Source: Pseudoxanthomonas sp. GM95 (GTDB taxonomy: Bacteria; Pseudomonadota; Gammaproteobacteria; Xanthomonadales; Xanthomonadaceae). Taken from it: a stretch of 64,000 nucleotides of DNA. Shown here one piece after another: positions 21,092-26,381 of the stretch. A program made the translations under genes and the position numbers. Under the pieces are notes generated by a model. The model had not been told where the DNA came from. It searched no databases and was given only the letters and a program-made list of their open reading frames with translations. Location: assembly GCF_900109775.1 (NCBI RefSeq), contig NZ_FOAX01000002.1:186001-250000 (forward strand), read 5' to 3'. Numbering within the stretch: position 1 is the stretch's first letter; each line of letters opens with the position of its first letter.

Positions 21092-23245
21092 ATGAGCACG
21101 GTGCGCCTTGAGGCGGTCAAAACAGAACAAGCGGCCCGCATCATTCCGATGCAGCCCGCATCCCAGGACATCTGGGACAAGAAGTACCGCCTGAAGAGCA
21201 AGGCCGGCGAGGCCATCGATGCCGACATCGACGGCACCTACCAGCGCGTGGCCCGCGCCCTGGCCGATGCCGAGCCCACGGCCGAAAAGCGCACCTACTG
21301 GTACGAGCGCTTCGTCTGGGCGCTGCGCCGCGGCGCGATCCCGGCCGGCCGCATCACCTCCAACGCCGGCGCGCTGGAACACAAGCCGGCCACCAGCACG
21401 ATCAACTGCACCGTGTCGGGCACCATCACCGACTCGATGGACGGCATCCTGGAAAAGGTCCACGAAGCCGGCCTCACGCTGAAAGCCGGCTGCGGCATCG
21501 GCTACGAGTTCAGCACCCTGCGGCCCAAGGGCGCGTTCGTCGCCGGCGCCGGTGCATACACCTCCGGCCCGATGTCCTTCATGGATATCTTCGACAAGAT
21601 GTGTTTCACCGTCTCCAGCGCCGGCGGCCGCCGCGGCGCGCAGATGGGCACCTTCGATGTCTCGCACCCCGATGCCAAGGATTTCATCCGCGCCAAGCGC
21701 GAGGATGGCCGCCTGCGCCAGTTCAACCTGTCGCTGTTGATCACCGATGGCTTCATGCAGGCGGTGGACAACGACACCGACTGGCCGCTGGTGTTCCCGC
21801 TGAGCAAGAAGGAAGAAGGCGACTTCGACCTGGCCGACACCAGCAAGATCCTGTGGCGCGAATGGCCCACCTCTGATGCCTACATCAGCCGCGACGACGG
21901 CCTGGTGGCCTGCAAGGTCTACGGGCAGATCCGCGCCCGCCACCTGTGGGACATGATCATGGTGTCCACCTACGACTACGCCGAGCCGGGCTTCATCCTG
22001 ATCGACCGCGTCAACGAAATGAACAACAACTGGTGGTGCGAAAACATCCGCGCCACCAACCCCTGCGGCGAGCAGCCGCTGCCGCCCTACGGCGCCTGCC
22101 TGCTGGGCTCGGTCAACCTGACCACCTTCGTGCGCGATGCCTTTACCGACCAGGCGCGGTTCGACTGGGAGGAATACAAGGAAGTCGTGCGCGTGTTCAC
22201 CCGCATGCTCGACAACGTGGTCGAAGTGAACGGCCTGCCGCTGGAGCAGCAGCGCAACGAGATCCTGCGCAAGCGCCGCCACGGCATGGGCTTCCTCGGC
22301 CTGGGCAGCACCCTGACCATGCTGCGCATGAAGTACGGCAGCGCCGAGTCCTGCGAATTCACCGAAGCCATCGCCCGCGACATGGCCGTGGCCGGCTGGG
22401 AAACCGGCCTGGCCCTGGCCAAGGAAAAGGGCGCCGCCCCGATCATGGAAGAGCGCTTCGAGGTCACTGCCGCGATGCTGCGCCAGCGCCCGGAGATGGA
22501 AAAGGACGGCTGGCGCGTCGGCCAGCAGATCGAAGGCAAGGTCCTGCACGCCAAGTACAGCCGCTACATGCAGCGCATCGCCACCGTCGCGCCCGAGCTG
22601 GTGGACGAGCTAGCCGATGTCGGCGCGCGCTTCACCCACCACAGCTCCATCGCCCCGACGGGCACCATCTCGCTGAGCCTGGCCAACAACGCCTCCAACG
22701 GCATCGAGCCGTCCTTCGCGCACCACTACAGCCGCAACATCATCCGCGAAGGCAAGAAGTCCAAGGAGAAGGTGGACGTGTTCTCCTTCGAGCTGCTGGC
22801 CTACCGCGAGCTGATCAACGCCAAGGCCATGCCGTTCTCGGAAGAAGCCGAGGCCAAGCTGCCCGACTACTTCATCGCCGCCGACGACATCCACCCGAAG
22901 GAACACGTCGACGTGCAGGCCGCCGCGCAGAAGTGGGTGGACAGCTCCATCTCCAAGACCGCGAACGTGCCCACGGATTACCCGTACGAGCAGTTCAAGG
23001 ACATCTACCGCTACGCCCACCAGCAGGGCCTGAAGGGCTGCACCACCTTCCGCTTCAACCCGGCTGCCTTCCAGGGCGTGCTGGTCAAGGAAGCGGACCT
23101 GGAGAACACCACCTACCGCTTCGAGCTGGAGGATGGCTCCTTCGTCGAAGTGAAGGGCAACGAGCAGATCGAATACGACGGCGAGATGCACACCGCCGCC
23201 AATCTGTTCGACGCGCTCAAAGAGGGTTACTACGGCAAGTTCTGA
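21092..23245 (+). CDS. nrdJ: adenosylcobalamin-dependent ribonucleotide reductase, NrdJa part
   Basis: 717 residues. Class II ribonucleotide reductase catalytic subunit: first redox Cys in STINCTVSGTI, thiyl-radical Cys325 in NPCGEQPLPPYGACLLGS, and the phosphate-binding PTGTIS loop (522-527). It reduces ribonucleotides to deoxyribonucleotides using 5'-deoxyadenosylcobalamin, without oxygen dependence. The protein stops shortly after GCTTFRFNPAAF and lacks the C-terminal TSCPD/cysteine tail of one-piece NrdJ; that part is encoded separately at 24113 (as in Pseudomonas NrdJa/NrdJb). Two GC hairpins follow the stop. Unusually, a histone-like gene separates the two halves. Confidence 0.93.
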   Translation: MSTVRLEAVKTEQAARIIPMQPASQDIWDKKYRLKSKAGEAIDADIDGTYQRVARALADAEPTAEKRTYWYERFVWALRRGAIPAGRITSNAGALEHKPATSTINCTVSGTITDSMDGILEKVHEAGLTLKAGCGIGYEFSTLRPKGAFVAGAGAYTSGPMSFMDIFDKMCFTVSSAGGRRGAQMGTFDVSHPDAKDFIRAKREDGRLRQFNLSLLITDGFMQAVDNDTDWPLVFPLSKKEEGDFDLADTSKILWREWPTSDAYISRDDGLVACKVYGQIRARHLWDMIMVSTYDYAEPGFILIDRVNEMNNNWWCENIRATNPCGEQPLPPYGACLLGSVNLTTFVRDAFTDQARFDWEEYKEVVRVFTRMLDNVVEVNGLPLEQQRNEILRKRRHGMGFLGLGSTLTMLRMKYGSAESCEFTEAIARDMAVAGWETGLALAKEKGAAPIMEERFEVTAAMLRQRPEMEKDGWRVGQQIEGKVLHAKYSRYMQRIATVAPELVDELADVGARFTHHSSIAPTGTISLSLANNASNGIEPSFAHHYSRNIIREGKKSKEKVDVFSFELLAYRELINAKAMPFSEEAEAKLPDYFIAADDIHPKEHVDVQAAAQKWVDSSISKTANVPTDYPYEQFKDIYRYAHQQGLKGCTTFRFNPAAFQGVLVKEADLENTTYRFELEDGSFVEVKGNEQIEYDGEMHTAANLFDALKEGYYGKF

Positions 23246-23413: not shown

Positions 23414-24004
23414 ATGAGCACAGGAACGGATATCACGGCGACGCTGTCCGATGCAGCGGACAGCGTGAAAGAGAAAACCAGCGAGATCGCCACCGTCGTG
23501 GCCGAGACCGCCAGCGTCACCGTCGACAAAGTGGCCAAGCGCGCGGCCAAGGCCAAGAAGACCATCGGCAGCAAGATCGCCGAGGCCAAGAAAGCCCTGA
23601 CCAAGCGCACCACCAAGGTGACCAAGGCCGTCAAGAAGACCGTGGATACCACCAAGAAGAAGCTCGCCACTGCCAGCACCAACGGCAAGACCGAAGCCGC
23701 CGCGCTCAAGTCCGCCGGCGTGGGCAAGAAGGTCGCCGCCAAGAAGGCTGCGAAGAAAGCCGTCAAGAAGGCCCCGGCCAAGAAGCTTATTGCCAAGCCG
23801 GCAGTGAAGAAGGCCGCCGCCAAGAAGGCTGTAGCGAAGAAGGCTGCAGTCAAGAAAGCGCCCGCCAAGAAAGCCGTGACCAAGGCTCCCGCCAAGAAGG
23901 CCGTCGCCAAGAAAGCCCCGGCCAAGAAAGTCGCAGTGAAGAAGGTCGCCAAGAAGGCGCCCGCCAAAAAAGTCGCAAAGAAAGCCGTCAAGAAGTCGAA
24001 GTAA
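23414..24004 (+). CDS. histone H1-like Lys/Ala-rich DNA-binding protein
   Basis: 196 residues. Residues 1-60 are a mixed amphipathic helix (SDAADSVKEKTSEIATVVAE); from about 105 to the end the protein is a low-complexity run of KKA, KKAPAKK and KKAV units, strongly basic. This resembles bacterial H1-like proteins (AlgP/AlgR3, Hc1) that bind DNA non-specifically and bend or compact it. Repeat number varies readily between strains in such genes. It lies between nrdJa and nrdJb on the same strand, with a strong hairpin 10 bases after its stop. Confidence 0.85.
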   Translation: MSTGTDITATLSDAADSVKEKTSEIATVVAETASVTVDKVAKRAAKAKKTIGSKIAEAKKALTKRTTKVTKAVKKTVDTTKKKLATASTNGKTEAAALKSAGVGKKVAAKKAAKKAVKKAPAKKLIAKPAVKKAAAKKAVAKKAAVKKAPAKKAVTKAPAKKAVAKKAPAKKVAVKKVAKKAPAKKVAKKAVKKSK

Positions 24005-24013
24005 GCCGCACCG

Positions 24014-24036
24014 CCCTTCCCCGTGACGGGGAAGGG
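24014..24036 (+). terminator. strong hairpin after the histone-like gene
   Basis: Perfect 10-bp stem CCCTTCCCCG/CGGGGAAGGG with a 3-base loop, 10 bases downstream of the stop. No T-run follows, so its termination efficiency is uncertain. Confidence 0.55.
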
Positions 24037-24112
24037 CCGCCGGCCTGGACGCGCCCGCGCGCCGCCGGCCCACCATTCCCTCGCCTCACCCCAGCATCCA
24101 GGACACCAGGCC

Positions 24113-24964
24113 ATGGCCGTCAAGATCGACAAGAAAATCAAGGGCTACAGCGTCCTCACCCCGGAAGACAAGGCGCGTGACGCCGCCCCGCCGGTGCCCG
24201 CAGAGTCCATCAGTCGCGCCACGGCCGAGGCCGAACTCCCCGTTGCCGAAGTCATCCAGATGCACGAGCGCATCGAGCGCCCGGACGTGCTGATCGGCAG
24301 CACCTACAAGATCAAGTCGCCGATGGTGGAGCACGCCTTCTACGTGACCATCAACGACATCGTGCTCAACGCCGGCACCGAGCACGAGCATCGCCGCCCG
24401 TTCGAGATCTTCGTCAACTCCAAGTCCATGGAGCACTTCCAGTGGATCGTGGCGCTGACCCGCATCATGTCCGCCGTGTTCCGCAAGGGCGGCGATGTGA
24501 CCTTCGTGGTCGATGAGATGAAGGCCGTGTTCGACCCGCGCGGCGGCTACTTCAAGGCCGGCGGCGTCTACATGCCCTCGCTGGTGGCCGAACTCGGCGC
24601 CATTGTCGAGGAGCACATGAAGTCCATCGGCCTGCTGCACGACCCGGAGATGAGCGAGCACCAGCGCGCCCTCCTGGCCGAAAAGCGCAAGCAGTACGAA
24701 GACCGCTCAAAAAAAAACACTGACGTAACCGCTTCTGCTCCCTCCCTTACGCGCAGCGAAGGGGAGGGCCGGGGTGGGGTCGCTTCTGCGCCAACCATCA
24801 TCCCCAACAGCACCGCCGACCACGAAGAGGACATCGCCGTCACCGGCGAGGGCGCCTCGTTCCCGCCCAGCGCCACCATGTGCCACAAGTGCAACACCAA
24901 GGCCCAGGTGATCATGGATGGGTGTGCGACGTGCTTGAACTGCGGGTATTCGAAGTGCGGTTGA
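24113..24964 (+). CDS. nrdJb: NrdJb: C-terminal part of split class II ribonucleotide reductase
   Basis: 283 residues from the ATG at 24113. Residues 1-195 correspond to the TSCPD-type C-terminal domain found in long NrdJ proteins (MAVKIDKKIKGYSV..., VNSKSMEHFQWIVALTRIMS). A poorly conserved linker (about 200-245) follows, then a cysteine cluster CHKC...CATCLNC..KC (Cys257, 260, 271, 274, 277, 282) that provides the zinc ribbon and the redox pair delivering electrons to the active site. In Pseudomonas aeruginosa NrdJb is required for NrdJa activity (established). The linker contains a 51-bp palindromic insertion in frame (24731-24789). Confidence 0.88.
   Translation: MAVKIDKKIKGYSVLTPEDKARDAAPPVPAESISRATAEAELPVAEVIQMHERIERPDVLIGSTYKIKSPMVEHAFYVTINDIVLNAGTEHEHRRPFEIFVNSKSMEHFQWIVALTRIMSAVFRKGGDVTFVVDEMKAVFDPRGGYFKAGGVYMPSLVAELGAIVEEHMKSIGLLHDPEMSEHQRALLAEKRKQYEDRSKKNTDVTASAPSLTRSEGEGRGGVASAPTIIPNSTADHEEDIAVTGEGASFPPSATMCHKCNTKAQVIMDGCATCLNCGYSKCG
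24731..24789 (+). repeat. in-frame palindromic insertion in the nrdJb linker
   Basis: A stem CTCCC/GGGAG-type palindrome (CTCCCTCCCTT ... AAGGGGAGGG) with an 8-base direct repeat GCTTCTGC at both edges (24731-24738 and 24782-24789). The unit from one repeat to the next is 51 bp = 17 codons, encoding ASAPSLTRSEGEGRGGV, so the frame is kept. Sequence of the type PSLTRSEGEGRGG is known to me as a recurrent insertion peptide in xanthomonad and related proteins. Confidence 0.7.
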
Positions 24965-24980
24965 GGTAGGACGCCTAGAG

Positions 24981-26381
24981 ATGGCTCGCAGAATTTTCTC
25001 AGTAGGCTTGGAGATTCCAGGTGGCGAGGCGAAAAGTATAGATTTCTTGTCTTCGCAGTCTCTTCTGGATGCGGATATCGTTCTGTTTTCCCCCGAAGTT
25101 CCCTATCACCACGAGCCAGAACGATACCAAGGAAAGCCCTGCCTTTCAGACGACTCCTCATTCCGTGCAAAAAACGCCATTGCTCATTGGCGTCGGGAGC
25201 TTGATGCGGCATTAAAGGCGGGGAAATTAGTTGTAGTTTTTCTGCAAGCGCCGGAGATAGTGTACGCAGCCACAGGCCAGGTTGATTATTCCGGAACTGG
25301 GCGTAACGCGCGCAAGACTAGGATAGTAGGCGAGTTGAATTCCTACGAAGCTCTGCCGGTCACCTGGAGAGTGCGAGCAGCTTCTGGGGCGGAGATGCGT
25401 CTTGCGCAAGGAGCGAACTTCTTCTCAGGATTTTGGTCGCAATTTTCTAAGGACATGGAGTACCAGCTCTATCTCGACGGTGTGCCTGCAGATTCCCTGC
25501 TAATGACGCGTGCTGGTGAGAGAGTTGTAGGTGCCTTCCTCAGAGTTGGGTCGGGGGCATTGGTTGCTATCCCGCCAGTGTCTTTCGATGATGAGGAATT
25601 TACGCGTGTTGAGGGGGAGGGCTACCAGCAGGAAGTATTCTGGACGGAGAGGGCAGTTAGTTTCGGAAGGAAATTCATTAATGCACTGTGCGTGGTCGAT
25701 GATGAGCTTTCATCAGAGGTAAAATTGACGCCGCCACCAGATTGGGTTCAATCAGGTGCGTATGAAATGCCTGCGGAGCTGGCTCTTAGAGAAGAGATAC
25801 TTTCGTTGAATGCTGAAATTGAGGCGCTCGATAGGCGAAAGAACGCTCTTGAAGAATCTCTTATTCAGGAGGGCGAGTTGAAGGCTTTGCTTTACGAGCA
25901 AGGGAAAAAGCTCGAGAAGGCAGTTCTTATTGCTCTCGGTCATTTCGGGTTCGAGGCGGAGAATCACTCTGATGGAGACTCGGAGTTTGATGCAGTTTTT
26001 TTAAGTGATGAAGGGCGGTTCTTGGGTGAAGTTGAAGGGCGCGACAACAAGGCGATAAATATCGAAAAATTCAGTCAGCTCGAAAGAAATCTAAGCGAAG
26101 ATTTCCAGCGAGATGAAGTCGATGAGTATGCTAAAGGTGTTCTTTTTGGGAATCCTTACAGGATTAGCCCCCCGCTTGATAGGTCTGCGCCGTTTACGGC
26201 GAAATGTGTCAGCGCTGCAAAGCGACTGGGCGTGGCCTTGGTAAATACTCCAGACATGTTTGAATCTGCGCGTTACTTGAGCGCAGTCAACGATCCTGGG
26301 TATGCGTTGCTTTGTCGCAAAGCGATCCGTGATGCAAATGGCGAGCTTGTGGTTTTTCCCGTTGTCCCAGGTGCTCAATAG
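24981..26381 (+). CDS. unknown protein: Rossmann-like N-terminus, coiled coil, nuclease-like C-terminus
   Basis: 466 residues, not recognised as a named family. Residues 1-235 look alpha/beta (strands ADIVLFSPEVP at 31-41 and GKLVVVFLQAPEIVY at 81-95, with a conserved-looking FRAKNAIAHWRRELDAAL helix between). Residues 265-312 are a heptad-like coiled coil (LREEILSLNAEIEALDRRKNALEES). The C-terminal domain has the arrangement of a PD-(D/E)xK fold: SEFDAVFL (Asp337), then RFLGEVEG (Glu350, Glu352) and a helix with FSQLERNL; the usual Lys is Glu. Base composition and codon use are clearly more AT-rich than the neighbours, indicating horizontal acquisition. It starts 16 bases after nrdJb and is followed by repeat copy C. 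A stand-alone anti-phage or DNA-directed effector is a reasonable hypothesis but unproven. Confidence 0.75.
   Translation: MARRIFSVGLEIPGGEAKSIDFLSSQSLLDADIVLFSPEVPYHHEPERYQGKPCLSDDSSFRAKNAIAHWRRELDAALKAGKLVVVFLQAPEIVYAATGQVDYSGTGRNARKTRIVGELNSYEALPVTWRVRAASGAEMRLAQGANFFSGFWSQFSKDMEYQLYLDGVPADSLLMTRAGERVVGAFLRVGSGALVAIPPVSFDDEEFTRVEGEGYQQEVFWTERAVSFGRKFINALCVVDDELSSEVKLTPPPDWVQSGAYEMPAELALREEILSLNAEIEALDRRKNALEESLIQEGELKALLYEQGKKLEKAVLIALGHFGFEAENHSDGDSEFDAVFLSDEGRFLGEVEGRDNKAINIEKFSQLERNLSEDFQRDEVDEYAKGVLFGNPYRISPPLDRSAPFTAKCVSAAKRLGVALVNTPDMFESARYLSAVNDPGYALLCRKAIRDANGELVVFPVVPGAQ

Follow-up and report, generated by a model that had tools for sequence, protein, structure and literature searches.

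A conserved run of nine A's beside a REP-like linker repeat in nrdJb: a probable transcriptional slippage site in a split class II ribonucleotide reductase

Introduction

How does a gene for a ribonucleotide reductase (RNR) subunit come to hold a palindromic DNA element in frame between direct repeats, and is that element the most important feature of its surroundings? The gene, nrdJb, lies in the window, our name for the whole 64,000-nucleotide stretch of Pseudoxanthomonas sp. GM95 DNA that was analysed. A preliminary description of the locus drew attention to the palindromic element. The more important feature is one that it missed: a run of nine A's (A9) in the coding sequence just upstream, with stop codons close behind it in both of the other reading frames. 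Below we first place the gene in its context and trace the repeat, and then turn to the A9 run, its conservation, the readings that could explain it and its distribution in genomes.

nrdJb and its ribonucleotide reductase context

The features discussed here are collected in Table 1. The gene can be assigned to NrdJb, the redox subunit of a split class II RNR: nrdJa lies upstream, and the protein combines a TSCPD body with a C-terminal array of six cysteines, all of which are invariant in alignments of 18 and of 35 rows. The C-terminal part of model NF006417 was also matched, below the cut-off of that model. The mechanically called ORF starts at a GTG at 24023 (313 aa), and the TSCPD match covers residues 95-199 of that version; residue numbers in this paper count from the ATG, which puts the match at about 65-169. 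The structure model, which is of modest overall quality (pTM 0.41), has a disordered linker flanked by a helix that ends at residue 205 and by a confidently predicted C-terminal domain. No fold in the PDB resembled this model at E <= 0.001, and positions 24000-25200 matched no known structured RNA in Rfam.

In the available parts of the relevant papers, the main role of Pseudomonas aeruginosa NrdJb is disulfide exchange for NrdJa (PMC4520616), and both this protein and the CRD of Stackebrandtia NrdJd resemble the protein studied here in their C-terminal six-cysteine array (PMC5704485, PMC4520616). Those same parts describe neither slippage nor a natural short NrdJb, and the truncations that they mention are laboratory-made or cleavage products (PMC5704485, PMC4520616). 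The gene had been called essential, which is unproven: because genes for the large and small subunits of a class I RNR are also present in the window's own genome, essentiality of nrdJb is not established.

The ORF between nrdJa and nrdJb is repetitive and Lys/Ala-rich, and it had no NCBIfam match. Runs of AAG/GCC-type codons also lie 5' of nrdJb in loci L044 and L047, where the frame printed is another one.

Table 1. Positions of the features of the nrdJ locus within the window
Feature	Position	Strand	Support or remark
nrdJa, encoding the catalytic subunit of the split class II (B12) RNR	21092..23245	+	TIGR02504 NrdJ_Z, E 3.2e-174; PF02867
Lys/Ala-rich ORF between nrdJa and nrdJb	23414..24004	+	sub-cut-off Pfam match only
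nrdJb, redox subunit, 283 aa from ATG	24113..24964	+	PF12637 TSCPD; alignment of starts
A9 run (codons TCA AAA AAA AAC, residues 199-202), candidate site of transcriptional slippage	24709..24717	+	
TGA reached after gain of one A; would give a 203-aa product ending SKKKH	24721..24723	+	
TAA reached after loss of one A; would give a 204-aa product ending SKKTLT	24726..24728	+	
Left GCTTCTGC copy	24731..24738	+	missing in L002-L004, which have the same repeat
Predicted disordered linker, residues 208-246	24734..24850	+	pLDDT < 50
Imperfect palindrome of the REP-like repeat	24740..24768	+	arms 24740-24752 / 24756-24768
Conserved part of the repeat family (right half with G-rich tail), GGGGAGGGCCGGGGTGGGGT	24761..24780	+	
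Right GCTTCTGC copy, companion octamer of the repeat family	24782..24789	+	like octamer on the right in 26/58 sampled copies
C-terminal six-cysteine array (C257, C260, C271, C274, C277, C282)	24881..24958	+	

The linker segment as a dispersed repeat

From comparison with its other copies, we read the segment at 24731-24789 as one copy of a REP-like dispersed repeat. The preliminary description of it as an in-frame palindromic element with flanking direct repeats in the NrdJb linker was borne out in coordinates, arms and reading frame. The two GCTTCTGC copies are spaced 51 nt; the inverted arms between them are 13 nt long and 85% complementary around a 3-nt loop (the palindromes in L002 and L004 have 12 pairs); and the segment, which sits between the TSCPD match and the six C-terminal cysteines, translates in frame as ASAPSLTRSEGEGRGGVAS. 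Five of the six frames of the repeat element are open.

The preliminary description had proposed a search for the same palindrome at other sites in the genome, and the further copies show that the element is no chance palindrome. Allowing at most one mismatch, the repeat core GGGGAGGGNCGGGGNGGGGT has 7 copies in the window's own genome, a low count for a REP, and 97, 49 and 22 copies in genomes G004 (a member of the same genus), G009 and G017, respectively; the reversed control pattern matched once in G017 and not at all in the other three. In the relative that we surveyed, G017, the repeat is mostly intergenic: by a crude composition test for coding ORFs, only the nrdJb copy among the 22 (in 19 stretches) lies well inside an ORF with gene-like composition, and 5 others lie within 20 residues of the end of an ORF flagged as gene-like. 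REPs near stop codons are said to stall ribosomes. A Y1_Tnp domain (RAYT-type) was matched once in the window's own genome (C5:210707-211027), on a contig for which no repeat copy is listed, and there was no such match in G017 with its 22 copies. A separate region, G000:C9:249500-253500 (L223), holds three matches to the window's type of repeat, in both orientations and within about 600 bases, resembling a BIME cluster.

The insertion had been thought unusual, a view that the published record does not support: in the part available to us, PMC3733652 describes in-frame intragenic REPs, many of them in DNA-metabolism proteins and some plausibly in linkers. The GTAG/CGTC-tagged REPs and Rickettsia RPEs treated there are, as here, short palindromes in frame inside genes (PMC3733652). 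The present repeat differs from them in its few copies in its own genome. Its ends may differ as well: in the copies viewed, neither GTAG nor CGTC is evident there, and GTAG occurs inside some loops only. The NrdJb linker is thus a further example of a protein linker colonised by DNA repeats.

The direct repeats had been taken for the footprint of an insertion, and here our reading departs from the earlier one. We rejected a target-site duplication, the mark of a simple transposon insertion, on two counts: L002-L004 carry the same repeat without the left GCTTCTGC octamer, and a like octamer accompanies the repeat elsewhere. Among 58 distinct sampled copies, a GCTTTTGC-like octamer was found on the right in 26, on the left in 8 and on both sides in 5, where chance would give about 1% per side. 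The octamer travels with or beside the repeat.

Turnover of the linker among relatives

Near relatives with an empty linker exist: L005 and L006, whose proteins are 93% and 92% identical, have no repeat there, so the segment is not a feature of all homologues. The window's repeat (type 1) is also found in L002-L004, a second type with a peptide like AGEGARRADEG in L007-L009, L011-L021 and L041, and the sister species L010 and L015 carry type 1 and type 2, respectively, at the same place. Within the genus, 20 of 34 loci have a linker repeat and 14 have none. In the wider set, palindromic repeats lie in the linkers of 23 of 112 genes from at least four genera, other genera being represented by Stenotrophomonas (L131), Luteimonas (L130 and L132) and L043; genus codes g26 and g27 and locus L259 also have linker repeats, as judged by the peptide alone.

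On a tree of the 112 genes, made by a quick search from the sequence upstream of the linker and containing many weak forks, a minimum of 15 changes is required to account for which genes have a repeat, and 16 for the repeat type. With that many presence changes, even on such a tree, we rejected the insert as a datable single event, and its proposed use as a datable marker falls with it, since the linker turns over to the point that sister species carry different repeat types at one place. Because relatives carry different palindromic repeats there, the simplest reading is that the linker is a tolerant site, hit repeatedly, in which GC-rich and nearly stop-free repeats persist. We explain the survival of the repeat within nrdJb by its entry into a linker predicted to be disordered, to which it brought neither stops nor a change of frame.

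Nine A's with out-of-frame stops close behind

The A9 run ends 13 nt upstream of the repeat segment, and the two out-of-frame stops end 6 and 11 nt after it. The locus thereby shows the features of a Thermus dnaX-type slippage site, namely a homopolymer of at least nine A's in coding sequence and nearby stops in both non-zero frames. Products of slippage (203-204 residues) would lose all six cysteines and keep the folded body.

According to the available parts of PMC5009743 and PMC1088944, slippage on nine consecutive A's or T's is highly efficient in bacteria, for nine A's also in vivo, and Thermus dnaX makes about 50% short product by means of an A9 run with a stop in each of the other frames. 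The likeness to Thermus thermophilus dnaX (tau/gamma) is close: there, as here, an A9 run on the sense strand is followed directly by stops in both frames, and the short product lacks the C-terminal domain (PMC5009743, PMC1088944, same parts). nrdJb differs in that it encodes an RNR redox subunit, in that its short form would lose a redox/zinc array, and in that here we infer slippage from sequence, together with its rate, RNA polymerase rather than the ribosome as the slipping enzyme, and a role for the short form.

Our proposal, which we consider likely to be correct, is that a REP-like repeat occupies a tolerant linker and that the adjacent A9 is a programmed transcriptional slippage site giving a short NrdJb.

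Conservation and selection on the run

Within the genus, the run is exactly nine A's in 30 of 30 loci, a stop ends 6 nt after it in all 30, and a stop in the other frame ends at 11 nt in 28. The wider set started from 135 loci, of which 118 could be parsed; 5 identical copies were dropped, leaving 113 distinct genes (112 of them kept in the repeat tally and 110 in the analysis of hairpin distances). Among the 17 unparsed loci, L041 has A9 and the other 16 are distant, with runs of at most 7. At least nine A's are present in 75 of the 113 genes (A9 in 72 and A10 in 3). A stop follows within 6 nt in 74 of these 75, and both stops lie within 12 nt in 64, as against 1.8 expected when synonymous codons are redrawn at the frequencies found in the gene concerned.

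The run is conserved at the nucleotide level beyond what the protein requires. Given the peptide, the mean chance of a nine-A run is 0.007, and elsewhere in the same 75 genes lysine is encoded by AAG 1078 times versus 143 times by AAA. Across 33 Pseudoxanthomonas genes with a mean GC3 of 0.876, only 6 of 258 codon columns have a GC3 of at most 0.1. Four of them (192, 193, 194 and 196) make up the slip site, and the other two (1 and 11) are close to the start codon. The codon preceding the lysines has A as its third base in all 33. The motif scan described below points the same way.

The site is not universal. It is missing from 38 of the 113 genes, including those of Dyella, Frateuria and some Stenotrophomonas, and the short form would therefore be dispensable there. 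One stop is missing within 12 nt in 11 of the 75 genes with at least nine A's; the stops lie at 14 and 142 nt in Arenimonas maotaiensis (L154), which has A9. In families f7 and f9 the A9 run stands in another codon phase (GAA AAA AAA ACG in L055 and L059), yet both stops are kept (L055, L057 and L059), which suggests that the site arose independently in these families; in L198 the stops lie at 6 and 16 nt. On the 112-gene tree, presence of A9 needs at least 14 changes.

Some further loci deserve mention. In Frateuria L168 and in L048 the sequence reads TCA AAC ACT GAG where relatives have TCA AAA AAA AAC ACT GAG, and the slip site looks to have been erased there by the in-frame loss of six A's. 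Locus L163, on a contig titled Bacillus subtilis SK7B5, has a Stenotrophomonas-like nrdJb and is likely mislabelled or contaminated.

Alternative readings and the role of the repeat

A short NrdJb could also come from ribosomal -1 frameshifting or sliding on AAA AAA AAC, with RNA polymerase not slipping at all. A_AAA_AAC does fit the X_XXY_YYZ heptamer in frame, and ribosomes slide on iterated AAA (PMC4363877, in the part available), but we think this unlikely. The nine A's kept by selection include one at a third codon position outside the heptamer, stops are kept in both non-zero frames, and the codon phase of A9 differs in several homologues. Slippage by RNA polymerase is favoured because a ribosomal shift needs neither the A of the preceding codon nor stops in both frames. 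Nor is there a fixed stimulator for the ribosome: the distance from the run to the palindrome ranges from 17 to 50 nt, and some genes have no palindrome. In the window the palindrome begins 11 nt after the second out-of-frame stop. In the repeat-bearing genes listed, hairpins of the repeat begin at a distance of 17-50 nt from the run, in many relatives at about 17-31 nt, and many genes have none (the finder assigned other hairpins to L018 and L021 and did not flag L043). Since the distances vary, we rejected the palindrome as a fixed-distance stimulator.

Linker repeats occur in 23 of 74 genes with A9 and in none of the 38 others. With phylogeny taken into account, however, the difference comes down to 2 independent pairs (p 0.5), and we therefore claim no association between the two features. 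We treat the repeat as a passenger beside the A9 site, although linker palindromes may further tune the slipped mRNA. The opposite view, that only the repeat matters and regulates NrdJb through an mRNA hairpin or a Pro/Gly/Glu peptide while A9 is incidental, strikes us as improbable. It can draw on the recurrence of linker palindromes across genera (with g26 and g27 added by peptide), but it has to accommodate the genus loci without any repeat, the variation in type, position and peptide, and an A9 that is kept with or without repeats.

We give least credence to phase variation, in which A9 would be a hypermutable contingency tract and slippage during DNA replication would turn full-length NrdJb on or off. 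A and T runs are likely hypermutable in this way (PMC1088944, in the part available), but no off-frame allele was seen, which is weak evidence at one genome per species: the frame of the cysteine array is the same in 73 of 74 genes with A9, the exception, L180, degenerates into a proline run, no gene among the 113 has a run of 8, and no internal stop was seen in the nrdJb homologue-search matches. Phase variation also has no need of two guarding stops.

Proposed consequences of slippage

Under transcriptional slippage, RNA polymerase would slip on the nine A's, some nrdJb transcripts would have one A too many or too few, and ribosomes on these transcripts would stop a few codons after the run. 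The linker 3' of A9 would be translated only from unslipped mRNA or after slippage by a multiple of three. The cell would make full-length NrdJb together with a form consisting of the TSCPD body, without the linker and the six-cysteine electron-shuttling array. The likeliest role of the short form would be to join NrdJa and full-length NrdJb in mixed complexes that have fewer redox tails, and so to tune turnover, which may slow, balance or protect the enzyme.

A broader proposal, which we put forward tentatively and rate as possible rather than likely, is that slippage in the Lysobacterales (Xanthomonadales) encodes a fixed cysteine-free fraction of NrdJb that assembles with NrdJa, and hence a class II RNR of mixed tailed and tailless subunits, that the slip ratio sets electron delivery, that the site arose more than once, and that linker palindromes may tune the slipped mRNA.

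Our literature search, which covered few subscription papers, found no paper that couples nrdJ with slippage and, among the papers listed, no title on transcriptional slippage in an RNR, and the word 'ribonucleotide' is absent from the available parts of three papers on slippage (PMC5009743, PMC3711429 and PMC1088944). The users of slippage surveyed in the available part of PMC1088944 have insertion sequences as their largest group and dnaX as a cellular case. If confirmed, this would be, as far as the literature searched shows, the first RNR with a slippage-encoded second form of a subunit, and it would raise a testable question: do class II RNRs need, or are they restrained by, subunits without a redox tail?

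Specificity of the motif in genomes

The window's own genome (4.69 Mb) has 5 exact A9 runs; in our judgement, nrdJb is the one evident gene with such a run on its sense strand. The other runs (L226-L229) were set aside as lying off the sense strand of any evident gene; that of L227 is in a 425-aa open frame judged non-coding (GC3 0.68, with a GC-rich hairpin after the run). Two places in this genome have ten or more A's, both beside GC-rich hairpins.

We then scanned 299 genomes of the order for an exact motif of A9, TGA at positions 4-6 and TRA at positions 9-11 after the run. It matched in 56 of the 299, once in each, and the reversed-pattern control matched in none; as the motif omits TAG and other phases (e.g. 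G018), a genome without a match may still have the site, or may lack nrdJb. The 56 matches comprise 53 in nrdJb, 2 in dnaX and 1 other (L254), which lies 24 residues into an unrelated open frame. Nine fall inside matches of the nrdJb homologue search; the other 47 were all fetched, and 44 of them proved to be nrdJb. A run of nine A's with two close out-of-frame stops is a cheap genome-wide rule, and here it picked out only nrdJb, dnaX and one stray match. Because this unprompted search returned dnaX, the classic slippage gene of Thermus, it supports the slippage reading of nrdJb.

The first dnaX match (L233, 69-1301, minus strand) was identified by the NCBIfam gamma/tau models, below their full-length cut-offs (400 residues were given), and the second (L234, 3-1187, plus strand) by the similarity of its protein. 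Both come from genomes of family f8, and in both the A9 run and the stops in both frames lie in the linker that follows the conserved N-terminal part of DnaX. From this arrangement, gamma is probably made by slippage in these two genomes too.
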